64,000 bases of DNA from Trachythela sp. YZ-2020 (taxonomy: Eukaryota; Cnidaria; Anthozoa; Malacalcyonacea; Clavulariidae): NCBI GenBank assembly GCA_016169945.1, contig JADLSH010000193.1, forward strand, positions 1 through 64,000, in the 5' to 3' direction. Positions 3,926-60,012 of the stretch are shown here, one piece after another. The translations under genes were made by a program, and so were the position numbers. The stretch's first letter is position 1; each line of letters starts with the position of its first letter. Below the pieces are notes generated by a model, which was not told where the DNA came from, did not search any database, and worked only from the letters and a program-made list of their open reading frames with translations.

Positions 3926-4741
3926 TCATTCTTGATCGTAACCAAGTACATCATGAATTTTATGGAAGAGCATCATAACCTTCCCCCCCTTATCCAATTC
4001 CAAGGCATAATGTGCAAGTGCTGCAGCATATTTTCTACGAAAGATCACCATACAGTCGTCACAATTTCTTGCTCCAAAAAAGCTGTACGCATCAACATCA
4101 TGTGATTGGCGACATTTGAATTTGCAACCAATCTCGCATTTAAGATGAAATGAGAGAATGGTTTCTAACGAGATTTCTAGATAACATTTGGCTGATTCTA
4201 CAATTTGTTCCAGAAATCTGCACTTCCCCAACAGTACCTTGTCCGATTGTGCACGCTCCAAGTTTGACATGGAATCCTTTAGTGTTTGAACTGGTATATT
4301 CTTTATGGCGAAATCAATGCATTTCTCACATAATTCCTTGTCATACTTTGCAGCATATGGCAGGAGGAGTAAAGCATTCTGTGATGTTATTGTACTATCA
4401 TCAAAGCACAACCTTATAACACTTTCTGCTTGGTATTTGTCAGCAAGCTCGAGAATATCAAATATGTTATCATTATCTACTGCTTTTGAGAACATTTTGT
4501 AAGGATACATAAATTTTAAAAAGTTTTCCATCTGTCCAGGATCATCTTGAAGAAAGACCTTTCCTTCGTTAGATTCTTTGAAACTACCATTGAGCATGGC
4601 ATCGAATACTGGCGACTGAACAGACAATATGGAACGATGCACGTTAAATTCGGCGCCTTTCAAACCTAGAACAACATCACTGTTCTTCCATGGCTTTGAA
4701 AACGCATCAGAAAGGTTTGATTCAGGTTGATTTTGGTTCAT
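3926..4741 (-). CDS. BTB/POZ-domain protein, single exon
   Basis: Encodes 271 residues if translation starts at the Met at 4741. The frame is open upstream to 4876, but those 45 residues are hydrophobic and unlike a BTB leader, whereas the chosen Met precedes an ordinary polar leader (MNQNQPES). The BTB fold spans about residues 21-125: SDVVL, then EFNVHRSILSVQSPVFDAML, then a KxFLQDD..MENFLKFMYPY strand-helix and ILELADKYQ. A helical BACK-like stretch follows (about 125-190). The C-terminal third carries a Cys/His cluster (CEIGCKFKC...H...CDDC, about 205-235) that could bind zinc. Proteins of this family usually homodimerise and many are Cullin-3 adaptors. No kelch, MATH or zinc-finger C2H2 partner is visible. 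The function here is not known. Confidence 0.8.
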   Translation of the reverse strand: MNQNQPESNLSDAFSKPWKNSDVVLGLKGAEFNVHRSILSVQSPVFDAMLNGSFKESNEGKVFLQDDPGQMENFLKFMYPYKMFSKAVDNDNIFDILELADKYQAESVIRLCFDDSTITSQNALLLLPYAAKYDKELCEKCIDFAIKNIPVQTLKDSMSNLERAQSDKVLLGKCRFLEQIVESAKCYLEISLETILSFHLKCEIGCKFKCRQSHDVDAYSFFGARNCDDCMVIFRRKYAAALAHYALELDKGGKVMMLFHKIHDVLGYDQE

Positions 4742-5383
4742 ATTTACGTAATATTCTGTACTTCGATAAAGTTTTAATTTAAAATAGTTGTTTATAAATA
4801 CGATGAGCCAGCATGGCGATAGCGGTAATTTCAAACCCAGAGAGATGTACTTCATGAATTCTTCTTGAAGAATCATTAGCGGGTTTCGGGGAGTATCAGA
4901 CTAATTCCTGCAGATCTTGAAACAAGAAAAACGAATTCATACAGGGAAAATTCGAAGAAAAAAATTCGTACAGGGATTGTGTGGGGAAAAAATCTTAAAA
5001 GTTTAAGTTTTGTCTTTACTTTCGGACGAACATAGTTGGTATGAATCACGACATGTTGTCAAAATATGTATTAAACTTGTGTGATTCGTATCATGTAATT
5101 TTTTATACTTTTGTTAAGATTGCAATGACCAAAATATGGAAGGCTGGAATGTATTGTTCTTTCCAGTTTTTTACTTCATATACAGCTGACTTAAACAGCA
5201 ATAAACAGGAATTTATTTTCCTTGTTTCATGGGTACGTCTGTACACGCTTAAATCGAATTCGTATTTGGTCACCATATTTAAGATGATATGCTGAACAGA
5301 AGTTAGGGATTCTAAATACACTTCTGTTTTTTTGAATAACCATTTGTCCTGTCTATGAAGAACCACACTTGGTTTTTGCAAAA

Positions 5384-12074: not shown

Positions 12075-12082
12075 TATAAAAG
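12075..12082 (+). promoter_or_regulatory. TATA box of precursor gene 1
   Basis: TATAAAAG lies 57 bp before the start codon. The paralogue has CATAAAAG at the matching place (44256-44263), and the following GAAAACAGCCAAGCTAACC is conserved. This fixes a likely transcription start around 12100-12110. Confidence 0.65.
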
Positions 12083-12131: not shown

Positions 12132-12274
12132 ATGAAGTGTTGGACAATTCTAGCCTTGCTGGTTACAGTCTGTGCTGTGTTTCTTGGTGTTGGACGCACT
12201 GAAGAAACCGCAGCGTATGATGATCTTGAAGAACCAGCTTTGGGGGATTCATCAAAGTTCAACGACGAAGAATT
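12132..12274 (+). CDS. Proline/arginine-rich secreted precursor 1, exon 1 (signal peptide + acidic propiece)
   Basis: This exon encodes residues 1-47. It opens with MKCWTILALLVTVCAVF, a clear signal peptide with likely cleavage near residues 21-23, followed by an acidic propiece (TEETAAYDDLEEPALG). The exon ends AAGAATT/GTAAGC: a consensus donor in phase 2, which also makes an apparent stop if the splice is ignored. The paralogous exon at 44313-44455 has exactly the same length (143 nt) and donor. The start is the first ATG after the TATA box. Secretion is supported directly by sequence. The defence or signalling role is inferred from the cationic exon 2. Confidence 0.8.
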
Positions 12275-14335
12275 GTAAGCCATATTTATTTTTTTCTTTA
12301 AATTTCACACCTATAACTCTTAATATAAAAATATGAAATTTCCTTCTCAGATTGGATATTCTTCTTTTTCTGCCATCAAATTGGTTACAGAAATTTTTAA
12401 TGTGAATAAGCAATTTGCGAGCTGTGAAGTTGCGAGTTATCGTATAAAAATACCAGATTTTCTCAAATTTCTTACCTCTATATACGTCAGTTTTTCCTAG
12501 GCATTTGTGAACTTTTCAACGTTGGTAGCTCTATGTAACAAGCCAAAGGTCAAAGCTTTAAACTAACATGCATTATAAAAGTTTTTGTTGTTGATTTGAA
12601 TGTTCTCGTTCAGTCGTTGTAAAGATGTTTTAGTTTATTTAGGATTCAGTTTTGCCGCTTGTTTTCAAACCACCCCTTCCTGTATAGCGGCCATATAGAA
12701 CACATACCTAATTTTATGAAAATTCTATTACTGCACATTTCATAAGCAATTCATGGGGGTCTGCCAGGACGACACCTTTTAGATTGACTGGAAATATAAC
12801 CATGCCTTACCAGTAAAAGCAATCCATGACAATAATTTCTTAACTGAATCTATCTTTTTCACATAAAAATAGAAAATAGTTTACAACTGAGTAAACTGAT
12901 AAGTGTCAAACCAAAATAGTTTCTACAACTTTAAACTCAATTTGGTGCCCTTTAAGCTCGATAGGACATTTACGTAAGTGACGTAAATTAATTTCGCCGA
13001 AACTTTTAGTAGGTTATTTTATAAGTAAGAATTTATCACAACAAAGTTGTCACTACACATTTGTACTGTCAATCACTGCACAATTTCATTCTATCACTGC
13101 ACAAATTGGCTATCACTGAACGCTAAAATTAGGTATGATAAGGCACATCTGATTTTTAATTTGGCGGGAAACTTCCAGCTCGCAACTCGCACTAGCTCAT
13201 AAGTTCAGAGCCCGCAATAAACTCATTATTTTTTAATATAATCGTGAAATTCCTTCTGTATATATGGTTACATGCAAACTGTTTGGACTAAAAATGAAGA
13301 TTTAAGATTTGGTTTCCAACCAGGATTAGTTATAGTGCCATTAATGTCCCAAGCTGTTGATATAAAACCATATTTATAAAAACACAATTCAAACAAAACA
13401 TATTTTGTGGGAGAAGGGGTTCTGGGGTGTGAAGACTCATATTATGACAAACATCATCCCTACTCACGTCACACCCTAAGCTGAACTGATTGACTGAACT
13501 GAATGCTCTGAACATAAAGCAGAGCCTTGCCAGGGGTAGCCATTCCCTGACGACCCTGAACCAAGAAGCACTTGGACAGACCTTAACCTGACCAAGGGGA
13601 ATGGAACCCCTATGGACAGTCCTTAATAACCTGACCCAGGGCGCTTGACCCATATGAGCAGTCCTTAACCTGACCAAGGGGAGATAAACCCCTATATGGA
13701 CAGTCCTTAATTATATGGTATATGTGTGACGTATATTGAGTCTATGGACCTGAAGTTGACATTTTGGAGACTTCAACCCGAACCACAAATTTATGAACCA
13801 AAATAACAAAATAGTCTGTAACCGAAAACGTTGCTTTTAAACTATATACATATTAAGTAAAGGCATTGTCTAGCAGCGACATTGTTTGTGTCTCTTTCCA
13901 AAATGTCCTTTCTCGAGTCCTTGATCCAGTATATGGTGTTGAAGACAGTCGATGATAGCTGCTTCTATTTGAAAATAATAGCTGTTATTTCCATAATATA
14001 TTAACTACCAATATTCTATCGATGAATTAGCAATTTTGAACATTCAAGGTAACTCTAACTTAGAGCAAACGTCTAAATCTAGATGCATTACGGTTCCGGT
14101 TAAACCGTCCCCCAAATTGTATTGTTAAACGGCATGTAAAAATGATGGGTTCTATTAAATTTTCTCTTATGCAATCAGTTACATGCTTTAAATCGTAAAG
14201 ACACAAATGACCCCTTGTTCGAAAGAGAAAACAACAAGTTTCGAAGTTAAACTGAATTTTGTTATTAGGAATAGTATTCTAAAAATTATTAAGCATAAAA
14301 GATCATTTTATTCCGTCTTTTTATGCACCATGTAG
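12275..14335 (+). other. Intron of precursor gene 1 (2061 nt)
   Basis: Runs from GTAAGC to a polypyrimidine-AG acceptor (TTTATGCACCATGTAG). It shares blocks with the 1026-nt intron of the second gene (TTCGTTCAGTCGTTGT, GCTTGTTTTCAAACCA, GTTCTATTAAATTTTCT). It is longer because of extra sequence, including a GGACAGTCCTTAACCTGACC minisatellite at about 13510-13710. No other gene is seen inside. Confidence 0.7.
13510..13715. repeat. Intronic GGACAGTCCTTAACCTGACC minisatellite
   Basis: Three to four imperfect ~50-bp units contain GACAG(T/A)CCTTAA, CCTGACC(A/C)AGG and a CCCCTAT tail. They are absent from the paralogous intron. The opposite-strand 115-codon frame across them is a repeat shadow. 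Confidence 0.6.
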
Positions 14336-14621
14336 ATATGAAAATAGTGAAAACGGTGATGATGATGATGATGACAGTGTGAATGAAGACAAACCAGCTA
14401 AGTTCAGACGTTCATCATGGCGCCGTTTTCCACGTCCCCGTTTGCCACGTCCCCGTTCATCATGGCGCCGTTTCCCACGTCCCCGTATCCCACGTCCCCG
14501 TTCATCATGGCGCCGTTTCCCACGTCCCCGTATCCCACGTCCCCGTTTCCCACGTCCCCGTTCATCATGGCGCCGTTTCCCACATCCCCGTATCCGACGT
14601 ATTCGTTCCGGCGGAAAATGA
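14336..14621 (+). CDS. Proline/arginine-rich secreted precursor 1, exon 2 (cationic repeat domain)
   Basis: Joined to exon 1 this completes a 142-residue precursor. Residues 49-71 continue the acidic propiece (six consecutive Asp, then SVNEDKPAKF). Residues 72-142 are the cationic part. After Arg-Arg come four units, SSWRRFPRPRLPRPR, SSWRRFPRPRIPRPR, a longer SSWRRFPRPRIPRPRFPRPR, and a diverged SSWRRFPHPRIRRIR ending SGGK. That is 28 Arg and one Lys in 71 residues with no acidic residue. An acidic propiece masking a cationic end is the standard plan of animal antimicrobial-peptide precursors. The Pro-Arg pattern resembles cathelicidin-type Pro-rich peptides by composition only. The 45-bp DNA unit keeps other frames open (for example one rich in FPTSP), but only this frame fits the acceptor phase, the paralogue and the signal peptide. 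Confidence 0.78.
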
Positions 14622-15663: not shown

Positions 15664-16292
15664 TAGCCTGAGACAGACGAATAACGAAAAATATTCGTCT
15701 GAGAACATTCGTCACTAATCTTGCCTGGTGACGTCAGAGCGTTAGTCGAGATTTAGATAACAGATTGTCATTGGTCACACTAAAATTGCATGTATTGTGC
15801 GTTTTTATTGGTTCATTAGACATGTCGGAAAAAATAAAAGATGGCGGAATTTACAGATCGAAATATTTTATGGAAACGTGCAATTAATAAGGTATTAAAT
15901 GTTTTTCAAGTACCTTCTTTGTATAAAGAACAGGAAGAGGCCCTTGCTCAATTGTTTTCGAAGCGAGATGTTTTCATTAATCTCCCTACATCGTATGGGA
16001 AATCGCTCATATTTCAAGTTGCACTCGATATTCTCTTTCGAAGAAGCACGGGAACCAGCATAGTAGTGGTTATTTCTCCACTGAAAGCCCTCATGGAAGA
16101 TCAAGTAAGATCACATGGTCGTTCGATACTTCGATAGTTCGATACAGTGTCGCTCATAGCAAACGCCATTTTGTTTTTCTCAGATACGTAATTATGCAAA
16201 TATTTATGATAAATTATGATAATTAGACCGGGCAAGATTAGTGACGAATGTTCTCAGACGAATATTTTTCGTTATTCGTCTGTCTCAGGCTA
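15664..16292. mobile_element. TIR element carrying a RecQ-like helicase exon
   Basis: Ends TAGCCTGAGACAGACGAATA / TATTCGTCTGTCTCAGGCTA continue as inverted repeats for about 65 bp (to ...CACTAATCTTGCC). It is flanked by a perfect 9-bp duplication GTTTCGAAC (15655-15663 and 16293-16301). The second paralogous flank near 47355 lacks it, giving an empty site. A 9-bp duplication with long TIRs and captured gene sequence resembles Pack-MULE-type elements. The superfamily is inferred. Confidence 0.85.
15841..16104 (+). pseudogene. RecQ-like DNA helicase N-terminal exon fragment
   Basis: Eighty-eight codons with RecQ/DEAD helicase motifs: LYKEQEEAL (motif 0 region, about residues 27-35), LPTSYGKS (Walker A, 48-55, with Ser where PTGYGKS is usual) and VISPLKALMEDQ (motif Ia, 77-88). 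The match stops at CAA/GTAAGA, a good splice donor, and the following bases diverge from helicase coding. So the element holds one complete first exon and no motif II-VI. It cannot encode a working helicase alone. Alternatively it is the 5' exon of an element-encoded helicase whose remainder has been lost. Confidence 0.75.
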
Positions 16293-25462: not shown

Positions 25463-26059
25463 ATATAATTGGTCTTGTGGTTCTTGTGGTTCACTTAGTT
25501 CACTTGGTTAACTTGGTTCTTGTGGTTCACTTGGTTCACTTGGTTCTTGTGGTTCACTTGGTTCTTGTGGTTCACTTGGTTTAATTGGTTCTTGTGGTTC
25601 ACTTGGGTCAATTGGTTCTTGTGGTTCACTTGGTTCACTTGGTTCACTTGGTTCACTTGGTTCACTTGGTTCACTTGGTTCACTTGGTTCACTTGGTTCA
25701 CTTGGTTCACTTGGTTCTTGTGGTTCACTTAGTTCACTTGGTTCTTGTGGTTCACTTAGTTCACTTGATTCTTGTGGTTCACTTAGTTCACTTGGTTATT
25801 GTAGTTCACTTGGTTCTTGTGGTTCACTTAGTTCACTTGATTATTGTAGTTCACTTGATTCTTGTGGTTCACTTAGTTCACTTGGTTCTTGTGGTTCACT
25901 TAGTTCACTTGGTTATTGTAGTTCACTTGGTTATTGTAGTTCACTTGGTTCTTGTGGTTCACTTGGTTCTTGTGGTTCTTGTGGTTCACTTGGTTCTTCG
26001 GTGGTTCACTTGGTTCTTGTGGTTCTTGTGGTTCTTGTAGTTCACTTGGTTCTTGTGGT
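25463..26059. repeat. TGGTTCACT/TGGTTCTTG minisatellite, array A (left part)
   Basis: A 9-bp core (TGGTTCACT, alternating with TGGTTCTTG) is repeated with few errors for about 600 bp. No frame contains a stop because the unit lacks them, so the long Val-His-Leu or Asn-Gln-Val frames are artefacts. Array A continues beyond the hAT-like insertion to 26930. Arrays B and C lie at 32163-32935 and 38855-39615. Confidence 0.95.
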
Positions 26060-28499: not shown

Positions 28500-29705
28500 A
28501 TAATATTTCGGATCAAGGCTATGGCTTTGTTCTGCCGCTTCTGCGCATTGTCTTTGTTCAGTGCACACTTAGTGCACACTTAGTGCACACGAGTTTTTCT
28601 GGGAATTTATTGAAAAAGCGAAATAAGCCAAATGAAGGGGTTTAAAGTATAAGTAAGCATAAGTGAGGAATCAATTCATTATTGCAATGAGGAATCAATT
28701 CATTACAGCAGCCTATCAACCAACACAACAAATAGGTCGTCATAGCTCATTAATTAATGGGGGAAAAAACGGTTTTTGGCACCCTGCCTTACACCTTGCC
28801 TAATCAATTTCTAAACTGGCCTTTAGTATTTTAGTGTTGCTAACGCCAGACTTGGCTATTACTTGGCTATTTAAACATGCAGCCATTTTGAAAAACAGTG
28901 ACCACTATCAATAATTGGATTATAATTCTCTAATCACTCATCGCGAACTAAAGTGAACTATAAACAAACCGGGCATTCCAAAACAATTAGTGATAATATC
29001 ATGAATGTGTCAAAATCGTGTTTCATGATTTTTTCGGCACTCTACCTATAAATACGCCTGCATTTGCTTTAAGCACCGAAATTATACACGCCTATACGTA
29101 GACTACATGCACCTTGCCCGTCCAATTATTAAGTTCCTCAGAGTCTACAGTACCTGAACCCTTTTCCGCCAGGTCTGGCCTTTAGTGTGTTATTGTTGCT
29201 AACGCCAGACGATTATATTTACTTGGCTGTTTAAACAATCATTTTTGCAGTGTTAGAAATGGATGAACAATGACCACTATCAACATGACCAATATAACTA
29301 TTGTAGGCGACTATTTTTTAATTGGATCAATTAGGAATAATGAGGTAAATCAATTATCAATTATTAAGAATCAATTATCTTACACCGAGGTAAAGCTATA
29401 ATTAAGCAATGGTTCAGATATACGCAATAGAAACTCTTTATGTTATTATATGAAAGTATGAGTGTCAGAGTTGCAAAATGTTTTGAACCTCCGCCTCCGA
29501 GTAGGATTTGTGTTTTCCCAACTTTACTCGAAATACTGAATTGGAAATTTTCCGACATGCAGTCTTTTGCCTGGGCACGCTTGACAGTTGGCCCTTGCAG
29601 CACTGCTAGTGTTGACGTGTTGTGCATGGTCACACCAATATGGCTGTCATTGCAGGCTTCAATTATGCATAGCATGCAGATGCACTATCCAGCCTAGTTT
29701 TTAGA
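28500..29705. repeat. Array segment with TTTAAGCACCGAAATTATAC / TTACTCGAAATACTGAA modules, copy A
   Basis: Duplicated at 34530-35700. Its end (GGCAGTTGTGTTGACGTG-like and GGTCACACCAATATGGCTGT) recurs at 31125, 35660 and 44070 and, more diverged, downstream of both precursor genes. The ~85-codon frames reading CVFPTLLEILNW in these copies vary by indel and I do not call them genes. Confidence 0.7.
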
Positions 29706-30238: not shown

Positions 30239-31171
30239 TTATTATTGTAATTATATTTTAAGTACTTTTCTCAGTTCGTTTAACATGTATGTTTATGAGC
30301 TAAAGTGTACGACAACTTCCAGGGGATCTTAGAGTCAATGCTAAAGATTTCGATTAAGCGAGTGTATATCGAGGGTTTAAATTTACGGTTTATTTATGAT
30401 AAGGTTTCATATTTAACTTAATCTAAATATATTTAAAGATATTTACACCGGATAGCTTTATCAAATGATCGCGCTAGCAATAAATGTATATTTCGTTCAG
30501 TTCTAAGCGACTGTATAGCAATCCTGTGTAACATGCAGTCAAACTGCATATGCCTTCATGCAAGTATAAAAACTCTTGGCTAGTGTCAGTTTTGACTTAA
30601 ACGAAGTTTTTACTCTGATCAATTGCTGCAGATATGAACAAACCGCGAGTGTCGTGTCTCATCGTCGATAACTTATTAAACGAAGCCCAATCCATTTCGT
30701 GTTAATAAGATACCTGAGGGTATGACCTCATTAGGATGTCAAGGTAAGGGCCCACAGTAATTGGTACTGTTGTGGTGTTCCCGCGTTTCTCTGTACGTTT
30801 TAAATCTAAAAATTGTTTGTATTATTGGCGAACCTGAATAAAAAATCTCAAGATTCAAACACATCTCAAGATTCTTGGCAAATTAGTTCATATGATGATA
30901 TATAATTAAGCAATGGTTCAGATATACGCAATAGAAACTCTTTATGTTTATATATGAAAGTATTAGTGTCAGAGTTGCAAAACATTTTGAACCTTCCTCC
31001 GCCTCCGGGAAGTATTTGTGTTTTCCCAACTTTACTCGAAATACTGAACAGGAAATTTTCCGACATGCAGTCTTTGCATGGGTACGTTTGACAGTTGGCC
31101 ATTGGAGTACTGCTAGTGTTGACGTGTTGTGCATGGTCACACCGATATGGCTGTCATTGCAGGCTTCAATT
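30239..31171 (+). repeat. TATA/AATAAA array repeat copy 2, fused to a 29390-29690-like segment
   Basis: Contains TATAAAAACTC at about 30566 and AATAAAAAATC at about 30839. It then continues directly into the AAGCAATGGTTCAGATATACGC segment otherwise found at 29403. This is a short partial unit between the larger duplicated blocks. Confidence 0.7.
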
Positions 31172-32162: not shown

Positions 32163-32935
32163 TCTTGTGGTTCTTGTGGTTCACTTGGTTCACTTGGTTC
32201 TTGTGATTCACTTGGTTCACTTGGTTCTTGTGGTTCACTTGGTTCTTGTGATTCACTTGGTTCACTTGGTTCTCGTGGTTCACTTGGTTCACTTGGTTCT
32301 TGTGATTCTTGTGGTTCACTTGGTTCTTGTCAGTTCACTTAGTTCACTTGGTTCTTGTGGTTCTTGTGGTTCACTTAGTTCACTTGATTCTTGTGGTTCA
32401 CTTAGTTCACTTGGTTCTTGTAGTTCACTTGATTCTTGTGGTTCACTTGGTTCTTGTGATTCTTGTGGTTCACTTGGTTCTTCGGTGGTTCACTTGGTTC
32501 TTGTGGTTCTTGTAGTTCACTTGGTTCTTGTAGTTAATTTGGTTCACTTGGTTCTTGTGGTTCACTTGGTTCTTGTGGTTCACTTAGTTCACTTGGTTCT
32601 TGTGGTTCTTGTGGTTCACTTGGTTCTTGTGGTTATTGTGGTTCACTTGGTTCTTGTAGTTCACTTGGGTCTTGTGCTTCACTTGGTTCTTGTGGTTCTT
32701 GTGGTTCTTGTGGTTCACTTGGTTCTTCGGTGGTTCACTTGGTTCACTTGGTTCACTTGGTTCACTTGGTTCACTTGGTTCACTTGGTTCACTTGGTTCA
32801 CTTGGTTCACTTGGTTCACTTGGTTCTTGTGGCTCACTTGGTTCTTGTGGTTCACTTAGTTCATTTGGTTCTTGTGGTTCACTTAGTTCACTTGGTTCTT
32901 GTGGTTCACTTAGTTCACTTGGTTCTTGTAGTTTC
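32163..32935. repeat. TGGTTCACT/TGGTTCTTG minisatellite, array B
   Basis: About 770 bp of the same 9-bp unit as array A, uninterrupted. Variants such as TTCTTCGG and TTCTCG are shared with array C, so B and C were duplicated together. Confidence 0.95.
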
Positions 32936-34530: not shown

Positions 34531-35710
34531 TAATATTTCGGATCAAGGCTATAGCTTTGTTCTGCCACTTCTGCGCATTGTCTTTGTTCAGTGCACACTT
34601 AGTGCACACGAGTTTTTCTGGGAATTTATTGAAAAAGCGAAATAAGCCAAATGAAGGGGTTTAAAGTATAAGTAAGTATAAGAATCAAATTAAATTTGCA
34701 GTGAGGAATCAACTCATTACAGCAGCCTATCAACCAACACAACAAATAAGTCGTCATAGCTCATTAATTAATGGGGGGAAACCGGTTTTAGGCACCCTGC
34801 CTTACATCTTGCCTGATCAATTTCTAAGTTACCCTTTTCCGTCAGGACTGGCCTTTAGTATTTTAGTGTTGCTAACGCCAGACTTGGCTATTACTTGGCT
34901 ATTTAAACATGCAGCCATTTTGAAAAACAGTGACCACTATCAATAATTGGATTATAATTCTCTAATCACTCATCGCGAACTAAAGTGAACTATAAACAAA
35001 CCGGGCATTCCAAAACAATTAGTGATAATATCATGAATGTGTCAAAATCGTGTTTCATGATTTTTTCGGCACTCTACCTATAAATACGCCTGCATTTGCT
35101 TTAAGCACCGAAATTATACACGCCTATACGTAGACTACATGCACCTTGCCCGTCCAATTATTAAGTTCCTCAGAGTCTACAGTACCTGAACCCTTTTCCG
35201 CCAGGTCTGGCCTTTAGTGTGTTATTGTTGCTAACGCCAGACGATTTACTTGGCTATTTAAACAGTCATTTTTGCAGTGTTAGAAATGGATGAACAGTGA
35301 CCACTATCAACATGACCAATATAACTATTGTAGGCGACTATTTTTTAATTGGATCAATTAGGAATAATGAGGTAAATCAATTATCAATTATTAAGGATCA
35401 ATTATCTTACACCGAGGAAAAGCCATAATTAAGCAATGGTTCAGATATACGCAATAGAAACTCTTTATGTTATTATTATATGAAAGTATGAGTGTCAGAG
35501 TTGCAAAATGTTTTGAACCTTCCTCCGCCTCCGAGTAGGATTTGTGTTTTCCCAACTTTACTCGAAATACTGAACTGGACATTTTCCGACATGCAGTCTT
35601 TTGCCTGGCTACGTTTGACAGTTGGCCATTGCAGCACGGCTAGTGTTGACGTGTTGTGCATGGTCACACCAATATGGCTGTCATTGCAGGCTTCAATTAT
35701 GCATAGCATG

Positions 35711-38854: not shown

Positions 38855-39615
38855 GGTCTTCTGGTTCTTGTGGTTCACTTGGTTCACTTGGTTCTTGTGG
38901 TTCACTTGGTTCTTGTGATTCACTTGGTTCACTTGGTTCTCGTGGTTCACTTGGTTCTTGTGGTTCTTGTGGTTCACTTGGTTCTTGTCAGTTCACTTAG
39001 TTCACTTGGTTCTTGTGGTTCTTGTGGTTCTTGTGGTTCACTTAGTTCACTTGATTCTTGTGGTTCACTTAGTTCACTTGGTTCTTGTAGTTCACTTGGT
39101 TCTTGTGGTTCACTTGGTTCTTGTGGTTCACTTGGTTCTTCGGTGGTTCACTTGGTTCTTGTGGTTCTTGTAGTTCACTTGGTTCTTGTGGTTCATTTGG
39201 TTCACTTGGTTCTTGTGGTTCACTTGGTTCTTATGGTTCACTTTGTTTACTTCGTTCTTGTGGTTCTTGTGGTTCACTTGGTTCTTGTGGTTCACTTAGT
39301 TCACTTGGTTCTTGTAGTTCACTTAGTTCACTTGGTTCTTGTAGTTCACTTGGTTGTTGTGCTTCACTTGGTTCTTGTGGTTCTTGTGGTTCACTTGGTT
39401 CTTCGGTAGTTCACTTGGTTCACTTGGTTCACTTGGTTCACTTGGTTCACTTGGTTCACTTGGTTCACTTGGTTCACTTGGTTCACTTGGTTCTTGTGGC
39501 TCACTTGGTTCTTGTGGTTCACTTAGTTCATTTGGTTCTTGTGGTTCTTGTGGTTCACTTAGTTCACTTGGTTCTTGTGGTTCACTTAGTTCACTTGGTT
39601 CTTGTAGTTTACTTG
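38855..39615. repeat. TGGTTCACT/TGGTTCTTG minisatellite, array C
   Basis: About 760 bp, same unit and same flanking junctions as arrays A and B. The long open frames across it in several phases are artefacts of the stop-free unit. Confidence 0.95.
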
Positions 39616-39617
39616 GT

Positions 39618-40508
39618 TGCCTGGCTAGTAAAATATTGGATATTCTCTCTTTATTCTGCTTGCAACTGCCTCTAATGTAAAAGGAATTCCAGAGATCTTG
39701 TCAAAAGTAAATCTATAGTGCTTACATAGTTACATTATATTTGACAGATCGTGAATTTTATCAATTAAGAATTTTATGCGAAAACAAGATATCTTTCCAT
39801 TTTTAAAAGTAAAACATGTTTTGACCACTATAGGCCGTTTGGGATAAACTTATAAATCAAAATTGATAGAAGTTTCATTCTATATGACTCTATTCCTCCT
39901 AGGTGTCGAATAGATCTTTAGGTTAATCAGTGTGCGCGCGACATATCTTGTTTTATCTTATCTATCTGCCGTAGCTGGCAACTGAAGTGTTTTATTCTTG
40001 AAGAAGTAGCAGTAGTTTAGTGATTTAGAAAGTTCGCGAGCGTTATAACAGCCTAACTTGAAAGCTAAGTCGCGGAATTGAAAAGGAATCTTTTCATCAG
40101 AATCGCTCATCAGGTTTGCGTAGCGATGCTCATGGTTGTAATTAAATTTGAATTATATCGAACAAGTCGGTTTGCAAACAAAGCATCTAATTGGTGCTTA
40201 ATTAAACGACGAAATAGTTTCATAAAAGGATTTTGAAAATTGCTGCGAGGTAGGACCGTTGTTTCTTTTGTTTATGGAGTATACGGCTCGAATAGGTCTG
40301 CTAATGCAATTGCAGTTCAATTCTATTGCACATACATATAAAGTCAACGCCGCAACATTAGTAAATCAATCCATCGTAGAAGATTTTAATAGTGACATTG
40401 TTTAATTTTGATTAACGATGAGAGCGTACATGTGCAAAAAGCTGTTTTCAGAACAGCTCTTTCGCATTTTTTGGCCAACGTTGTATTTGTGAACTCTCCG
40501 CCTACAAA
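39618..40508. repeat. Post-minisatellite segment, copy C, truncated with an inverted piece
   Basis: Colinear with copies A/B to about 40230. From about 40237 the sequence is the reverse complement of roughly 33570-33860 (TGCGAGGTAGG...CTCTCCGCCTACAAAGTTT). The segment carrying the RT fragment is gone. This is a local inversion-deletion ending at a SINE tail. Confidence 0.75.
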
Positions 40509-43602: not shown

Positions 43603-44130
43603 TTAATCTAAATATATTTAAAGATATTTACACCGGATAGCTTTATCAAATGATCGCGCTAGCAATAAATATATATTTCGTTCAGTTCTAAGCGACTGTA
43701 TAGCAATCCATGACCAATATAACTATTGTAGGCGACTATTTTTTAATTGGATCAATTAGGAATAATGAGGTAAATCAATTATCAATTATTAAGAATCAAT
43801 TATCTTACACCGAGGTACGTAAAGCCATAATTAAGCAATGGTTCAGATATACGCAATAGAAACTCTTTATGTTATTATTATATGAAAGTATGAGTGTCAG
43901 AGGCTCAGAGTTGCCAAATGTTTTCAACCTTCCTCCGTCTCCGAGTAGAATTTGTGTTTTCCCAACCTTACTCGAAATACTGAACTGGAAATTTTCCGAC
44001 ATGCAGTCTTTTGCCTGGGTACGTTTGACAGTTGGCCATTGCAGCAATGCTAGTGTTGACGTGTTGTGCGTGGTCACACCAATATGGCTGTCATTGCAGG
44101 CTTCATCAGATGCACTATCCAGCCGTATTT
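43603..44130. repeat. Last array unit, joining to precursor gene 2
   Basis: Combines the end of array repeat copy 5 with the ACCGAGGTA...AAGCAATGGTTCAGATATAC and TTACTCGAAATACTGAACTGG modules, then GATGCACTATCCAGCC. It directly precedes the promoter of the second precursor gene. Confidence 0.65.
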
Positions 44131-44312: not shown

Positions 44313-44455
44313 ATGAAGTGTTGTACAATTCTAGCCTTGCTTGTTACAGTCTGTGCTGTGTTTCTTGGTGTTGGAGATATTGTAGAAACCGCAGCGGTTG
44401 ATGATCTTAAAGAACCTGCTTTGGGATATTCATCAGAGTTCAACGACAAAAAATT
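44313..44455 (+). CDS. Proline/arginine-rich secreted precursor 2, exon 1 (signal peptide + propiece)
   Basis: 143 nt encoding residues 1-47, with the same length and donor (AAATT/GTAAGC, phase 2) as copy 1. The signal peptide is nearly unchanged (MKCCTILALLVTVCAVF). The propiece differs more and is less acidic: GDIVETAAVDDLKEPALGYS, then EFNDKK. The change pattern (conserved signal, diverging propiece and mature part) is typical of secreted peptide families. Confidence 0.75.
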
Positions 44456-45481
44456 GTAAGCCATATTTATTTTATTCATTCAATTTCACACCTATAACCT
44501 TTTTAACATTGGTAGCTCTATAACAAGCCGGAGGTCAAAGCTTTAAACAAACATGCATTAATCCATTATTGATTTGAATATTTTCGTTCAGTCGTTGTTT
44601 TGGTTTATTCAGGATTCAGTTTTGCTGCTTGTTTTCAAACCATTTCAGTCCATCCCACCCCTTCCTATATATCGGCCATATAGGACACATACCTAATTTT
44701 ATGAAAATTCTATTAATGCACATTTCATGCATAAGCAATTCATGGGGGTCAGCCATTTCGTAGACTATTCCATGCATGGTACCCCCAGGAAAATTTTACG
44801 GACGACACCCTTTAGATTGACTGATAATACAACCATGCCCGCCCACAAAAAGCAATCCATGACAAAAATTTTAACTCAATTGGCGCGAAACTTGCAACTC
44901 GCAACTCGCCAGGTCATAAGCTCACAGCCCACACTAAACCCATTTTTACTATAATCGTGAAATTTCTTCTGTTTATATGGTTACATGCAAAATGTTTGGA
45001 CTAAAAATTAAGATTTATGATTTTTTTTTCAACCAGGATTAGTTATAGTGCCAATAATAGAGAAAGCATGCACTAATGTTATTTACTTTTTTCATAATAT
45101 ATATAATGATATTTTACAGAAGATCGAAACGAGACTCGCCATAGACAGAGACGTTTTTAATTATAATTACAAGATATAATTTTGTTTTGACATATTTCAG
45201 CTCTGGGATCTACTTTCAACTCATTTACTAACTGTAGGTCCATTACGATTCCGGTTTATCCGTGCGCCAAATTGTATTATTAAACAGCATGTAAAAATAA
45301 TGGGTTCTATTAAATTTTCTTGTGCAATTATTGCATGCTTTAAATCTTTAAATGACCCTTTGTTCAAAAGAGAAAACAACAAGTTTCGAAGTAAGACTAA
45401 AATATTTTTATAAGGATTAGTATTCTAATCATTATTATATATAAAACATCATTCTAATCCGTCTTTTTATGCACCCTGTAG
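44456..45481 (+). other. Intron 1 of precursor gene 2 (1026 nt)
   Basis: GTAAGC to TTTTATGCACCCTGTAG. Shared blocks with copy 1's intron show common descent. It lacks the GGACAGTCC minisatellite. Confidence 0.65.
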
Positions 45482-45544
45482 ATACTATGATGATGATGAT
45501 TATGAACCAGGAGCAGAGATTGATCCGAACACTTTAGTGGCAAT
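45482..45544 (+). CDS. Proline/arginine-rich secreted precursor 2, exon 2 (acidic)
   Basis: A 63-nt symmetric exon from CTGTAG/ATACTAT to GGCAAT/GTAAGT, phase 2 on both sides. It adds LYYDDDDYEPGAEIDPNTLV and a further Ala, prolonging the acidic propiece. The corresponding acceptor in copy 1 opens the terminal exon directly, so copy 1 has exons 2 and 3 fused, or copy 2 has gained an intron. Confidence 0.65.
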
Positions 45545-46061
45545 GTAAGTTGTTTCTGTGTCATGTCTTACCACGCCACAACATTCTGTACAGAAAAAAT
45601 CATACCATGTCACTCCACACGTTACCACACCGTACGATACCATATCGTATCGTACCGTACCGTACCGTACCGTACCAACCCATACCAAACCAAACCAAAC
45701 CGTACGTACCATACCATAACACACCACACCATGCTCAAAGATACCATATAACACCACACCAAGCCATAGCATACCACACCAAAACAAACCATACAACACC
45801 AAATTATATTATAGCATACCACACAATACAGATCACACCACACCACATGACACTACACCATAACATATCCTACTCATACAATATCATACCACAGCACACC
45901 ACAGCACAACATACCATGCAACATCACACGCATAATAAGCCATACCTCACCACACCATCCCACATCCCACCATATTTCTTTCAATAATATACTACATCAT
46001 TCTGCACTTACGTCTACTGTAAAAGGTTCTTGCAATATATATCTTAATTCTTTCAATTCAG
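45545..46061 (+). other. Intron 2 of precursor gene 2, low-complexity ACCATACCACACC
   Basis: 517 nt with a strong donor GTAAGT and acceptor TTTCAATTCAG. Most of it (45600-45970) is degenerate ACCATACC/ACCACACC/CGTACCGTACC repeat. The 145-codon plus-strand and 100-codon minus-strand frames in it are repeat artefacts. Copy 1 has no counterpart. Confidence 0.65.
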
Positions 46062-46317
46062 AGAGAACGCTTTGGACAGTGTGAATGAAGACAAACCAGC
46101 TAAGTTCAAACGTGCACCATGGCGTTTCCCACGTCCCCGTTTCCCACGTCCCCGTATCCCACGCCCCCGTTTCCCACGTCCCCGTTTCCCAAGTACGTCC
46201 CCGTTTCCCACGTCCCCGCTTCCCACGTCCCGCATCCCACGTCCCCGTTTCCCAAGTCCCCGTCCCCGTTTCCCACGTCCTCGTTTCCCGCGTCCCCGTT
46301 TTCGTTTCGGAAAATGA
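46062..46317 (+). CDS. Proline/arginine-rich secreted precursor 2, exon 3 (cationic FPRPR domain)
   Basis: Completes a 153-residue precursor. ENALDSVNEDKPAKF (70-84) matches copy 1, then KRAPWRFPRPR and repeats of FPRPR/IPRPR. A 13-residue uncharged stretch (STSPFPTSPLPTS, about 112-124) interrupts, followed by RIPRPRFPSPRPR and more FPRPR, ending FRFGK. KR at the start of the basic part is a potential convertase site. The uncharged stretch is what the neighbouring frame encodes: a few extra bases near 46191 and a compensating loss near 46229 shift the frame out and back. The C-terminal Phe-Gly-Lys could yield an RF-amide after trimming. Function is inferred as for copy 1. Confidence 0.72.
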
Positions 46318-53568: not shown

Positions 53569-56500
53569 CTACGCATAGTCTGCTAGATGTCTCGGTGGTG
53601 CTCGAACACGTTGTGGATAACGGTGAGCTTCTTGCGTCTGTTCTTCAGCTTGTGCAGCGTTGTCAGCTTCATCGTCCGTATCATCGAGGCATAGATCGAG
53701 GTTATCATATTCTCCGTCGGTTGAGCTCTCTTCGGTTGGTTCATCTTGCTGTCTGACGAGCTTGAAGAATGACGAGTTTCTGGTCACCGTCTTTTCTCCT
53801 CGCTTGGCGGTAATCATCGAGCCTTTGCAGCTGATTACTTTGTATGGCTTTGGTTCATACGGGGTTTGCGACTTTCGATATGAGTGGTCACGCTTTAGAA
53901 CAACGGTGTCACCAGATTGTATTCTCGATGGCTTGACGTATGCTTTCGAGTCAGCATACTCCTTCATCTTTCTTTTGGCTTTCTGATCCGTCTGTTGGAT
54001 CTTCGCCGGGTCTCGTGTATCGGTGTGCGCCTCAGGTAGCTTCGTTCGTATTTGGCGATTGAATAAGGCTGTGGCTGGGGCCTTTCCAGTTGAGCTATGG
54101 GGTGTGGCTCTGAAGTTCCGAAGGAAATTGGTTAGTTCTTCACGCCATGGTTTCTGCTGTGTAATTGCAATCTTCACGATCTTCTTTACCGTCCTCATGA
54201 AGCGCTCTACTTCGCCATTAGCCCTTGGCCAATAAGGGGTGATCTTTCGGTGGGTAAATCCCAGGTTATCGGCGAAGGTTGCGAAGGCTTCGGAGTTGAA
54301 CGGCGGACCGTTGTCAGATTTCAGAACTCCTGGAATGCCGAATTGTGAAAAGATATGCTGGAGTTTAGGAATTACAGTTTGGGCTGCCAATGAACGAATT
54401 ACTTCAACGATTGGGTAACGTGAGTAGTCATCAGAAAGCACTAGGAGGTAGTCCCCCGTCGAGAGTTCAGCAAAGTCTACGCTTATCTCTTCCCATGCTT
54501 GATCGGGCAGAGGAGACATTTGTAACGGCTCACGTGCCGCCTCTGGGGTTGCAACTTGGCATGCGAGGCAGGATTTTACTCGTTCTTCGACCATTTTGTT
54601 AATTCCAGGAAACCATACCTTCTCTCGTAGTAGGGATTTGGTTTTGGTAATGCCTTGGTGACCTTCGTGAGCCAAGTCCACGACCCGACGTTGTAACTTG
54701 TTTGGAATCACTAATTTCGTTCTGCGAATGATCACTTGGATTGTTGTCCCAACGGTTAATTCATCTTTGAGGCGTTCGTATGTGCGAAATGTGTCAGTAT
54801 CGACCTTTGGGTGTTTGGCTAGCTCGTACCACTTGCCTGATTGAACTGCGTCCATGACGGCACGGAGGGTTGGATAACGCCCTATGGCCTCTGCGATCAT
54901 GCTGAGGGTGAGTGCTGTTGGTGTTGAAGTTGTGGCAATGTAGTTGATGTATTCCTCTGCGACTTTTTCCTGTCTGCTGCAGGGTTCAGGGTGATTGGAA
55001 GGGTGCCTAGACATGTAGTCTGCAGGATTTTCTTCTCCCTTTCGGTAATAATAATAATATATTAATAATATATTGTCGGTGTAATGCACGGTCGTCTGGT
55101 ACGGTTGAAGTCTGAGTGTCCATCTTTCGATACGAGCAGGTGGTTTCGAGTTTGCGTTGCCATATATGGCAACCAGGGGTTTGTGATCTGTGTAGATATT
55201 GACTGGCTTGCCGTAAATGTAGAGGTGGAAGTGTTCACATGCCCATACTACGGCGAGGGCTTCGCGCTCTGTCTGGCTGTAGCGTTGCTCGGTGGTTGTC
55301 AGAGAGCGGCTGGCATACGCAATGATACGAGTGACTTCGGTTGTGGGGTCGACTTGTGCTAAGATGGCACCCAGGCCGACTGGGCTCGCATCAACGGAAA
55401 TTTCAGTTGTTTTCTCAGGGTTGAAGTACGCTGTGACAGGTGCATTGGCCAACACATTCTTGAGTTGAGCCAGGGCATGGTCCTGCTTGTCAGTCCACTC
55501 CCAAGTATGGTTCTTGTGGGTGAGAGCTCGCAGCGGCTCGGTAATTGTGGCGTATCCCTCGATGAATCGTGCACAATAGTTGGTCATGCCTAGCAGGCTA
55601 CGGACTTCGGTGACTGACCTTGGGGCTTTGAGGTTTAAGATATCTTGGACTTTCGTTGGGTCCGGGGCCATGCCTTCTGCCCCAAAAACATAGCCGAAGA
55701 ACTCAAGGCTGTTCTTGCTATACTCGCACTTGAGTTTGTTCAAGGTCAGACCTCGTTCGCGAAGGCGCTGGAATACTGCTGCAAGGGCTTGATCGTGTTC
55801 CTTCTGGGTCTTGCCATAAACGAGTATGTCGTCACTAATGTTGATTGCGCCCGGGATGCCGTCCAGACTCGCGGATGGCGTTTTGAAAGATTTCGCAGCG
55901 CTAGATATTCCAAAATTGAGTCGCTTGTAGCGCATAAGCCCAAGGTGGGTGCTGAAGGTGGTGATGTATCTGGACTCGGGGGCTAGTTCTAGTTGGTTGT
56001 AACCCTGGTTGAGGTCAAGCTTGCTAAAAACGGTTGCACCATTCAAATCGCCGACGATTTCCTTGATTGTTGGGGTGATATGGCGTTCACGCTGGACCGC
56101 GGTATTTGCACGACGCATGTCAACACATACGCGAACCTTTCCGGGTGATTTGGGCTTTGGTGCCACGACAATGGGCGATACCCAGGGGGTTGGACCCTCG
56201 ACGCGTTCGATTACATCCAGTTCTTCATCCTGACTCAACTGTTCCTCAAGTTGTTTGCGTACATGGAACGGCACACGTCTGTGTGGTTGGGCAACTGGTG
56301 GTACACCTTTGTCAATGTGAAGGTGAACCTGGTAATCTTTCAACTTGCCGAGTCCTTGGAACAAGTCCTGATACTGGGTGGTGAGCTGGTCGACGGTAGG
56401 AATGTCTTGGTGTTTAATGGGCTTTACGACTTTGAGTAGTTCCAGGTCGGTAGAGGTGCGCCAGCTAAGCAATGATCCACTGGTTCCTTTCACAACGTAG

Positions 56501-57018
56501 AATGTCTCTGTACGGTTGACTGTTTCCGACGCAATGATGGAGGTAAATTGTCCGAGGACGGGTAGAGGTATCTCCGTCTGGTAAGGATAAACTTTGATGC
56601 GTGTTTTCTCCAAACGCGGTCGGGGGGGAAGCTTGCTGTAATCTTGTTCATCGAGGATGTTGATACTGGAACCCGAGTCTGCCATTATGGTCAGCGGTGT
56701 TCCCTCGATGGTGACGTCAAACAATGGGTGTTTGTTTCGATCCGAAGTCATGTTGTTGACGTTGATGCGGAACACTCCAACTTCGTCACTGTCGTCGCTG
56801 TGGTCAGGTTCTTCTGCCTTGTTCATCGCTCGGACGTCCTGGCGTTCGGATCTTTGTGGGTAACGTCGCTGACTTGGTTTGGTGGGGTTTGCGCGATATC
56901 TGTCTTGGAGACATACGGACTGAAAGTGGTTAAGCTTCCCACAAGATCGACATTCTTTTCCATATGCAGGGCAAGTCGAAGAGCCTTTGTTCGGAACGAT
57001 TGAGTTTGTTCTATACGG
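53569..57018 (-). pseudogene. Ty3/gypsy-type gag-pol remnant, long open frame
   Basis: The frame is open from after a TAA at 57019-57021, so the Met at 56826 is internal. It begins with the end of Gag: CPAYGKECRSCGKLNHFQSVC holds a CX2CX4HX4C zinc knuckle (about 56905-56955). Numbering from that Met: protease with IMADSGSSINIL (active Asp 50); reverse transcriptase with VRVCVDMRRAN, FSKLDLNQGYNQL and ISDDILVYG; RNase H with ISVDASPVGLGAIL and IYTDHKPLVAIYG; integrase with HEGH...CLAC zinc site and DDE residues in SVDFAELS, KSDNGPPFN and ANGEVERF. A chromatin-proximal SH3-like tail with DTVVLKRDHSYRKSQTPYEP follows. An in-frame AT-repeat insertion adds LLIYYYYY near 55045-55075. Most of gag, the primer-binding site and a complete 5' LTR are missing, so the copy is not autonomous. 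Confidence 0.85.
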
Positions 57019-57075: not shown

Positions 57076-59060
57076 CATTCGTTAATGTTTTAATAAATAT
57101 ATCATGCCAGTTCTGAAACTATAACACATATACAGTATATTATCCATGATTCATCAGGAAAATCTGACCATGAGTACAAATTAATATTTGAAGGAGGTAA
57201 ACTTCAGTCTAATTTTACTTGAACAAATAAAACTAGGAACTTTTGAAATGAATATGAAAATGACATAGGTTTTACAGAGCTTTTAAAGTCAGCTGAGGTT
57301 AAATACACTCGAGATCATACTGATTGAATTCCAAAGCTCTCAACTGTTATGTCCAGCATTAACTGCAAAGGCTCGCCTTGCTTCAAAGAGCTTTGCACTT
57401 AAATCGGCATGTAAATGAAGTGGCACGAGTCACGATCGGAAATTGTATGCCAGTATCGCTGAGCATTCATTGCATGGCATCGTTGACTAAGTCAAGAATG
57501 TTCGCGCGCTTTCTTTTGATGTATTTATAACAAATTGAGGCTCACATTGTAAGTTCAAAGTGTTTGTAATCAGTACTTGAGTGTCGTAAGATTGTTTTAG
57601 GCCTTCTGCATGCCTTTTTTTACTAGATGAATTTTACCAATAAATCAAAAACTTTGCCGACTATATCGACTTCGCGACTATATCTTGAAATAATTTAATA
57701 TCTCGCCTCATTAATATGGCAGAACGGCTCAACATGTACAATCTACACATACTCAATTAAGGCAGGTTGACCTGACTTATAGGTGTCAATTTTTGGCCGC
57801 AATTGACTTTAGAAATGCTGGCTCGCGCAATTTTCAATCAGTTTTCAATCCATACGCAATGCAATGTGAGATACATGCATATAGGTCAAATATTCATTGT
57901 TTGACAGTGGCGTGACGTAAGGACTTCTAAGGTCAATTTCCGTTCGTGATGTATTTGTACTTATGAACAGTAATTGTGAATTAATTTCGTTTGTGGCAAT
58001 TGCGTGTCATGCTGGAGGGTTTCATTGGATTTATATCTGGGAATCGCAAGACATTCGGGGACGGCGACGACTTTTACAAGAACTTAGTAAGCTTACTAAT
58101 TTACGATATTCATCAGTGATATGTGTTGCTGATAGAATAATAGAATTCTACCGAGAATCATCACTGATGAATGTGATTTTAGTGTAATATATAGGAAGAA
58201 AACATTACGCACTGGATATGATGAATCTACCAATCAGAAATCATGCAGTCTACGATCGTGAAAGCAAAATAATATCATACAAGCCATGCACTTGCAGAAT
58301 AAATAGTTAATTAAGGTTAAAACTATTAAAATATGAATAAATAGCTGGTTAACTTAACAAAATATACTTACATAGCTCTTCAAGGCAAACTCTTCAAAAT
58401 AGTATTCTTAAATCAAGTAATGTATGAATGACCAGAGTTACTGGAACTTAGTATGAATTTATAAACTCAGCTTTTCTTCCGCCGTATATGACGTCAGATC
58501 CGCCCAAAACCAAGGTTAGGTTCGTTTCAGCACAGTTAACTGACTGTGGTTTCAGCGACTTCGAATCCACTGTATTGCTCATTTTTGTCTCAAAATTTTA
58601 TAACTTTTCGCAAGATACTGAATATAGATTGAGAGTAAATATTCGTTCTTAATAATGGCACACATGTATTTAACAGTTAAAAATCTAAACTAAACCCATT
58701 CTTCTTGGAACCATATCTACAAACTCTTTAACGCGATTTTCCACGTCAAGCTCCTCCAATAAATCGTTTTCAATGCAGGGTTGGCGCCAGGAATTCCCCG
58801 ACGAAGGGGCTAAGTTCTTAGAGGTAGTCTAACGTTTCATCTGTTGTTAAACCTAGGGGGGTTCTGGGGCATGATCCCCGGAGAACATGTTTGAATTTTG
58901 AGTTTCTGAAACGGTATTTCCTGCATTTTGAGGGTACTTTGCGGTAGAATAGAATTGTCAGGATCGTTACAAAATATAGATTCTTCCGATCGACGAAATG
59001 TGAATCCCCCCTCTCTCGCGCCACTCCTGCTTCAATGGACATCAACATAACTTTTTTAGG
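57076..59060. other. Intergenic DNA
   Basis: No gene supported. A 74-codon frame at 57963-58187 contains one arm of a short inverted repeat (ATTCATCAGTGAT / ATCACTGATGAAT, 58108-58182). At 58785-59040 GGCGCCAGGAATTCCCCGAC...CCTAGGGGGGTTC resembles the shoulder of the hAT-like element at 48300 and may be a remnant. Confidence 0.4.
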
Positions 59061-59086
59061 GCCTTTCTTGCTTCATGTTTTGTAAG

Positions 59087-60012
59087 TTTCACTCCACCGC
59101 TACGTCCCTATTAGATTCAACAAATAGTTGGTACGTTAACATGAATAGAAAAATGTTTAACTTAGTAGTTTTTATAGATCTGAAAAAAGCATTTGACACC
59201 GTAGATCATCAAATTCTACTTGAGAAGATGATAATTTATGGTATTAAGGATAAGGCACATTCGTTGTTGAGATCATATCTTACTGATCGCACCCAAAAAT
59301 GCCAAGTAAATGGTGTCGTCTCGTCTGAACACAAAGTTAAATGTGGTGTTCCTCAAGGCTCCATTTTAGGTCCTTTATTTTTCCTAATATACATAAATGA
59401 TTTATCTGAATGCCTAAATAGGACAAAACCAAGACTTTTTGCAGATGACACAAACCTAACTGCTTCCGGTGGATCAATAAATGATGTTGAAATGCAATGA
59501 ACTTTGATTTGGAAAACCTCAGAATGTGGCTAAACGCAAACAAACTGAGCCTAAACATTGCTAAAACTGAATTTATGCTTATTGGAACAAGATCTCTAGT
59601 GCATACTGTTTCAGATTCACATTTAAACATAATGATTGAAAACAAACCAATTAAACAAGTGCAGGAAGATAAGAAACTAGGAGTAATAGTTGATCAGCAT
59701 CTATCTTGGAAAAGCAACACTGAGAGTATCTGTAAGAAAATCACATCAGGCATTTCTGTTATTAGAAAACTAAAAGAATTTGTTGACCGTGATACACTTG
59801 TTTCTATATTTAATGCAATTGTACAACCATACTTTACTTATTGTTGTGAAGTGTGGGACATTTTTGGTGAAACTCAATCACAACAATTACAAAAGCTCCA
59901 AAATAGATGCGCTCGAATTATTATGGACATGGGAAATGAAGTTAATGCTCAAATTGCATTAAATTCGTTAGGTTGGGAGACACTAAAAGCACAGAGAACT
60001 AAAGCCAAGGCA
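59087..60012 (+). pseudogene. LINE reverse transcriptase, 5'-truncated (family 1)
   Basis: Starts within the RT domain (FHSTATSLLDSTNSWYVNMN) and shows FIDLKKAFDTVDHQILLEKM, GVPQGSILGPLFFLIYINDL and the catalytic LFADDTNL. One missing base at about 59497 (CAATGAAC for an expected CAATTGAAC) causes a stop. After the shift the RT thumb continues as LRMWLNANKLSLNIAKTEFM, then LGVIVDQHLSWKSN, then QKLQNRCARII, ending near LKAQRTKAKA. CR1/L2/Jockey-type by motif wording. No endonuclease is attached. Confidence 0.75.

Follow-up and report, generated by a model that had tools for sequence, protein, structure and literature searches.

Precursors of amphibian skin antimicrobial peptides (AMPs) such as temporin, brevinin, and palustrin are multigene products with a conserved signal peptide, an acidic propiece, and a hypervariable C-terminal mature peptide, in which diversity is higher (PMC7106915). 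In Hydra, the arminins have a conserved, negatively charged N-terminal region and a poorly conserved, positively charged C-terminal region (PMC4820302), and AMP families are clustered and taxon-restricted (PMC10945409). The myticalins of mussels are multigenic and linear, with Pro/Arg/aromatic repeats, a dibasic site, predicted amidation, and pseudogenes (PMC5577615). Here, these systems are compared with gene 1, located at positions 12132 to 14621 of the first 64,000 nucleotides of contig JADLSH010000193.1 of Trachythela sp. YZ-2020. This 64,000-nucleotide stretch is referred to as the window. Throughout, PMC7106915, PMC4820302, PMC10945409, PMC12250223, PMC4321713, PMC6909153, and PMC7523074 are cited for excerpts of the respective papers.

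Gene 1 belongs, with a probability of roughly 0.6, to a large multigene family of octocorals that encodes precursors of secreted effectors, most likely antimicrobial or microbiome-controlling peptides. This reading draws on direct observation of the gene structure, the family, a shared cleavage motif, the diversity and charge of the tails, and unequal constraint along the precursor. The family is apparently undescribed; no description of it is present among the open-licence literature matches listed, a scope that covers main articles. It has so far been seen only in octocorals and is built on a known precursor logic; what is unusual is how many kinds of tail follow a single leader. If the reading is correct, the family would be the octocoral counterpart of the frog-skin and Hydra peptide arsenals, and control of the coral microbiome becomes testable gene by gene.

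Structure of gene 1

The features of gene 1 are as follows.

12075..12082, plus strand: TATA-like element TATAAAAG, from the sequence; a similar element lies upstream of paralogues
12132..12274, plus strand: exon 1, encoding the leader (signal peptide) and the start of the acidic propiece; 70 homologous first-exon sites
12275..14335, plus strand: GT-AG intron, phase 2, from the sequence; donor conserved in paralogues
14336..14621, plus strand: exon 2 (fused middle and final exons), with acidic run, dibasic FRR site, cationic tail, and stop
14358..14375, plus strand: six Asp codons of the propiece, from the sequence and translation
14412..14618, plus strand: predicted mature region of 69 residues, with 26 Arg, one Lys, no acidic residues, and a GGK end

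Exon 1 contains 143 coding bases (47 codons and 2 bases) and ends at the donor TT/GTAAG; the acceptor AG occupies positions 14334-14335. The two exons join in frame to give a precursor of 142 residues. A GTA[A/T]G donor is present at or near the equivalent place in 40 of the 44 first-exon copies read. The 12274/14336 junction of the first-pass annotation is thus consistent with an in-frame join, a GT-AG intron, and conserved donors, its support coming from paralogues and not from transcripts.

Most of the other features named in that annotation are also recovered. The proposed TATA box is the element listed above, which ends 50 bases upstream of the ATG; [TC]ATAAAA lies upstream of 20 of 23 first exons checked, most commonly as CATAAAA. 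The leader is hydrophobic, as expected of the proposed signal peptide, with a Kyte-Doolittle maximum of 3.06 over a 12-residue window, and the acidic propiece contains the six Asp in a row. Counted from the RR pair, the tail is 71 residues in length with 28 Arg, as claimed. It terminates in RIRSGGK, where GGK is an amidation-type end, and contains no Cys. Four SSWRRFPRPRxPRPR units had been described; SSWRRF does start four times, but only three complete SSWRRFPRPR[LI]PRPR units follow and the fourth is degenerate. The Arg content is far beyond chance, as 100 first-order Markov windows of equal composition reach a maximum of 14 Arg in 71 codons.

A gene family with hypervariable tails

The protein search used here finds only proteins that share short exact words with the query. 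With gene 1 as the sole query, two proteins were found at E <= 1, both from the octocoral Paramuricea clavata. An alignment of four sequences found 10 proteins at E <= 10, and a leader-and-propiece alignment found 33 at E <= 10, 16 of them at E <= 1e-3. One match (P0031) is plainly unrelated. Every organism-labelled relative is a P. clavata hypothetical protein, which agrees with the cnidarian origin suggested earlier. The tail of P0004 has WPRRRRV repeats and a GK end, P0008 is His-rich, and P0006 combines poly-Arg with a longer tail that contains Cys. Two ENA contigs of 705 and 1040 nucleotides encode P0005 and P0007, full precursors of 176 and 181 residues without interruption, which suggests that these contigs are spliced transcripts.

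The genome searched contains the window and totals 578 Mb in 396 contigs. Queries with gene 1, P0004, P0006, and P0003 gave 81, 83, 100, and 38 matches, respectively; the three P. clavata proteins show at most 83% identity in every match listed. With near-duplicates included, the matches mark 70 sites of first exons, distributed over 22 contigs, and 46 of final exons. Near-duplicates among the first-exon sites involve C122 and C231, the two halves of C73, and copies within C250, some of which may be haplotypes. Tandem clusters are present, for example nine first exons within C30:4.263-4.329 Mb. The final-exon match at C347:3861187 (L058) shows no family motif on reading, and additional final exons came to light only when loci were read.

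The loci read comprise 22 of about 9.6 kb and 40 small pieces. Together with the two genes of the window (gene 1 and its paralogue, gene 2), they contain 44 first exons, 48 final exons, and 46 distinct tails, the last counting gene 2 in its window and L011 versions as well as two L010 tails of unequal length. Final exons were located by a motif scan over L009-L070 and genes 1 and 2, the overlapping L001-L008 being left out. The scan returned no final exon in 18 loci (L013, L023, L051, L055, L057, L058, and L059-L070), of which L059-L070 are small pieces taken for the first exon only. A dibasic site is present at the equivalent place in 48 of 48 final exons, the scan itself having required one. 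Broken copies are present: first exons at C73:1802252 and C191:2443851 contain an in-frame TGA, and the tail of L017 has an apparent frame break.

The final exons can be sorted into two clades by motif, not by tree. Clade I (EDKPAKFKR and similar) has 18 distinct tails and clade II (NDED..FKR and similar) has 28. An Asp-rich middle exon with GT-AG ends is present in 16 of 18 clade I loci examined, a sample that does not include L012. The two exceptions are gene 1 and its near-identical copy L010, in which the middle exon is fused to the final exon. The acidic exon of gene 1 is continuous with the final exon, so that, compared with the other members, gene 1 has lost intron 2, and its exon 2 unites what are elsewhere separate middle and final exons. 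Of seven clade II rows examined, one (L025) has the middle exon; it was not found in the two rows of L028 or in L043, L047, L052, and L056, and L030 gave no donor match.

The members share the leader, the acidic piece, and the dibasic site, and the sequence beyond that site is hypervariable. Tail types include Pro/Arg repeats, poly-Arg, Cys-Trp-Arg repeats, and helix-like sequences. Clade I tails are mostly linear arrays, such as RFRVP, RLPRI, RYRIP, and RWPRIPRP. Clade II tails are poly-Arg with a CKYG-type domain, CWGRRCIRRRP repeats, helix-like with Cys, or short and linear. Tails range from 19 to 128 residues, a range that sets them apart from amphibian AMPs, as do the Pro/Arg arrays. All 46 carry a positive net charge, with a minimum of +3, and their 2620 residues include 983 Lys/Arg against 33 Asp/Glu. 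Cys is present in 17 of 28 clade II tails and one of 18 clade I tails, leaving 28 of the 46 without it.

The first-pass annotation had taken gene 1 for a convergent Pro-rich antimicrobial family. Its acidic propiece before a cationic Pro/Arg tail holds, but Pro/Arg repeats are just one of several kinds of tail that follow this leader, and a lone convergent Pro-rich AMP is therefore set aside. The antimicrobial part of that proposal is indirectly supported by the multigene organization, with its conserved leaders and hypervariable tails.

Tail ends bear on whether these genes are neuropeptide preprohormones yielding RFamide-, RWamide-, or RPamide-like signals. A GK or GR end is present in 15 of 18 clade I tails, including three FGK and seven WGR, and octocorals make GPRRamide and pQGRFamide (PMC6909153). 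Clade II tails end in G (15 of 28), GR (1 of 28), or neither (12 of 28). The octocoral preprohormones described contain multiple short peptide copies, and every copy has an amidation site and a cleavage site of its own (PMC6909153), whereas genes 1 and 2 have a single amidation-type end per precursor and repeat units without intervening Gly. The tails of paralogues also differ strongly. The strings PRPR, RPRF, and FPRP are absent from the main text of the octocoral (PMC6909153) and hexacoral (PMC7523074) surveys, and gene 1 fits none of the octocoral neuropeptide families in the passages cited (PMC6909153). A neuropeptide role is very improbable.

Several tails and loci were observed to have unusual arrangements. 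Clade II tails L031-L034 contain 11-12 consecutive Arg, and in L036 and L046 the Arg runs are interrupted by Gly and Ser. The poly-Arg tails of L031, L032, L033, L034, L036, and L046 adjoin a conserved domain of the type CKYGRFIPGIGK..TASPLGAQ.RWKG; L031, the one member of this group scanned, matches no Pfam family. At L028 (G000:C385:2812500-2822150), a single first exon precedes two final exons with dissimilar tails, one Pro/Arg and one poly-Arg, each with two Cys. L020 and L021 (G000:C384:4182300-4209100) lie about 8 kb apart in opposite orientation with identical first-exon and tail proteins, which suggests an inverted duplication.

Constraint, probable processing, and possible mode of action

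Constraint was measured as a pooled Nei-Gojobori dN/dS on automatic alignments. For exon 1, L013, L023, L029, and L030 were dropped from the 44 copies and duplicates were merged to give 35. The signal peptide has a mean identity of 87% over 595 pairs and is moderately constrained (dN/dS 0.68 in clade I and 0.56 in clade II), while the part of the propiece in exon 1 is not strongly constrained (1.07 and 0.49). In the final exon, mean identity of propiece and tail is 89% and 58% in clade I, and 85% and 47% in clade II. The corresponding dN/dS values are 0.31 [0.18-0.54] and 1.03 [0.82-1.32] in clade I, and 0.25 [0.20-0.30] and 0.66 [0.58-0.73] in clade II. The tail value exceeds that of the propiece in 499 of 500 (clade I) and 500 of 500 (clade II) bootstraps. 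Four small groups show the same direction, some more weakly (432 of 493, 458 of 489, 469 of 469, and 491 of 491 usable bootstraps). Tail sequence drifts while tail charge is kept.

These values also bear on the proposal that the copies are relics of a spreading repeat, in which the leader and DNA satellites were duplicated without a current peptide function. Many copies are near-identical, flanking repeats are dispersed, and broken copies occur (the first-exon TGA codons and L017 frame break given above, and an out-of-frame patch in gene 2). Against this stand purifying selection on the final-exon propiece, conserved splice sites, cationic charge in every distinct tail, and the two contigs resembling spliced transcripts. 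Of the explanations considered, this one has hardly any likelihood.

A leader, an acidic propiece, a dibasic site, a cationic tail, and an amidation-type end together point to a secreted precursor that would be cut by a convertase and partly amidated. The shared leader would direct the precursor into the secretory pathway, and a prohormone convertase would cleave after the conserved KR or RR. In the Pro/Arg branch, the terminal GK or GR is probably trimmed by a carboxypeptidase and an amidating enzyme, which leaves an amide. The freed polycationic tail would then bind anionic microbial surfaces as an antimicrobial, and Pro/Arg tails, expected to be disordered, may enter cells and bind internal polyanions.

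Ribosome blocking, which the first-pass annotation had brought in from known Pro/Arg-rich peptides, is not supported as a property of the family as a whole. Class I (ribosome-binding) proline-rich AMPs have a conserved core containing PRP (PMC11678341). This motif occurs seven times in the gene 1 tail and eight times in the gene 2 tail, but in only 8 of the 46 distinct tails; clade I contributes 5 of its 18 tails to this count and clade II 3 of its 28. Among the proline-rich AMPs compared (such as Bac7, PR-39, and oncocin), Bac7(1-35) shares PRLPRPR with the gene 1 tail (Bac7 sequence from PMC6017362); a shared run of that length appears in 14 of 1000 shuffles, nine peptides were tried, and the other eight comparisons are unremarkable. 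Gene 1 has no cathelicidin domain in Pfam. Myticalin A5, which is similar in composition, was considered an unlikely binder of the ribosomal tunnel (PMC5577615). Surface or polyanion binding is therefore favoured; action on ribosomes is possible for the Pro/Arg branch only.

Several observations weigh against an antimicrobial or microbiome-controlling function. Propiece and tail charge are uncorrelated (rho -0.10, p 0.71, 15 precursors), although some frog families coordinate the two (PMC7106915). Masking of the tail by the propiece, as had been proposed, is therefore not borne out, and a balanced charge lock is rejected. Several tails, at up to 128 residues, exceed the usual length of AMPs. 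The tail dN/dS near 1 could reflect relaxation of everything but charge, and the tail alignments behind it are uncertain. Two further points, a cornifin match and the Lys-Arg-ended propiece, each favour a different function.

Gene 1 and gene 2 match no Pfam family, and nine of ten members in a further Pfam scan fall below the cut-off. The tenth, the tail of L016, passes that of cornifin (PF02389; 40.8 bits against 34.8), a structural Pro-rich family, a match interpreted as a similarity in Pro-repeat content. Assignment to any family of Pfam, NCBIfam, or PDB was rejected overall, the matches being sub-threshold or composition-driven with this one tail alone above a cut-off. The long pentapeptide arrays and Asp runs would also suit a structural or skeletal matrix protein (scleroprotein, sclerite, or cuticle), with Pro/Arg blocks as scaffold and Asp runs as mineral binders. 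The Asp run, in contrast, precedes the conserved KR site and would be cut away, and short non-repetitive and Cys-bearing tails occur on the same leader. A word search of the main text of an octocoral skeletal proteome (PMC11959691) found no arginine, Asp-rich, proline-rich, or basic-protein term. A structural role is accordingly quite unlikely.

In cnidarians, nematocyst proteins of various kinds carry a propeptide with Lys-Arg at its end (PMC4321713), which keeps a nematocyst role in consideration. The propiece would then be the usual nematocyst-sorting propeptide, and the polycationic tails would either be packed against the anionic matrix of the capsule or affect prey. Hydrozoan capsules contain poly-gamma-glutamate (PMC4321713), and a conserved signal peptide is reported for AMPs and toxins alike (PMC5577615). 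On the other hand, genes 1 and 2 have no known domain in Pfam (the search included no toxin library), and most tails lack Cys. A nematocyst or venom component is unlikely, but less so than a structural protein.

The preferred reading, a family of secreted effector precursors, is compared with described systems as follows. The leader and final-exon propiece are conserved and the mature region is hypervariable, as in the amphibian class; no sequence relation to amphibian AMP precursors turned up in the general protein and Pfam searches, and none was compared directly. Preprodermaseptin is a further amphibian precursor of this class. Like the arminins, the family is cnidarian with a negative, conserved N-terminal and a positive, variable C-terminal region (PMC4820302), and its paralogues are likewise clustered (PMC10945409); no arminin is present among its protein and Pfam matches, no arminin sequence having been compared directly. 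All of the myticalin features listed at the outset recur, but the order is reversed: in myticalins the mature peptide precedes a C-terminal acidic propeptide (PMC5577615), while gene 1, gene 2, and the full precursors P0004-P0008 have the acidic piece ahead of the tail. Myticalin genes also have a phase 1 second intron after the mature region (PMC5577615), and the gene 1 intron is in phase 2 and lies before the tail.

A further interpretation, possible but somewhat less likely than not, concerns how the octocoral effectors diversified. One leader-plus-propiece cassette would be present at tens of loci, and unrelated cationic end-domains (Pro/Arg arrays, poly-Arg, Cys-Trp-Arg repeats, helix-like, and His-rich tails) would have evolved on it or been swapped onto it. 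Some loci would have two alternative final exons behind a shared first exon, and each species would control microbes with its own peptide cocktail. For activity tests, the family offers dozens of natural sequences, some of them Pro/Arg arrays of unusual regularity.

Royalisin, which is a defensin, and arenicin both contain Cys, which the gene 1 tail lacks. A review passage reports transcripts annotated as arenicin-2 and royalisin in the sea fan Gorgonia ventalina, an octocoral source like that of gene 1, and the comparison is by annotation only (PMC12250223). These transcripts are the one AMP mention among the literature matches listed on octocoral defence, which otherwise concern mainly terpenoids and other small molecules.

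Gene 2 and other features of the window

Self-comparison of the window identified gene 2, a second copy of the family in three exons at 44313-46317.

44313..44455, plus strand: exon 1 (window self-comparison and genome search)
45482..45544, plus strand: exon 2, the Asp-rich middle exon (sequence and GT-AG middle-exon scan)
46062..46317, plus strand: exon 3, with FKR site, FPRPR repeats, FRFGK end, and a short out-of-frame patch

The introns and 3' flanks of genes 1 and 2 are also alike, at 72-87% in the main pieces. Each gene has a copy about 1.62-1.63 Mb away on the same contig; in the main pieces, similarity is 99.3-99.7% for the surroundings of gene 1 and 92.5-99.2% for those of gene 2. These copies represent either the other haplotype or a recent duplication. 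Compared with L011, the copy of gene 2 at C73:1669401, the out-of-frame patch lies between length differences of 26 and 1 bases, followed by another of 9; L011 is in frame where gene 2 has the patch.

L010 (246-6870 of the locus, within G000:C73:1634000-1643600) has one first exon followed by two final exons with tails of unequal length. The double final exon arose when a stretch of about 4.2 kb underwent partial tandem duplication, and alternative use of the two is conceivable. The 5' flank of gene 2 (43800-44124) recurs at 29375-29694, 30902-31168, and 35402-35695 without a first exon; these three copies are either a dispersed repeat or decayed copies.

The remaining features of the window are listed below; domains are from a domain scan.

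3926-4900, minus strand: open reading frame (ORF) with a BTB/POZ domain
15838-16137, plus strand: ORF with part of a DEAD-box helicase domain
53569-57018, minus strand: long reverse-transcriptase (RT) ORF with RT, RNase H, and integrase domains
59060-61557, plus strand: long reverse-transcriptase ORF with an RT domain (scanned part 59491-61557)
25487-26052, 32177-32925, and 38871-39618: three minisatellite arrays of TGGTTCACT with several open frames

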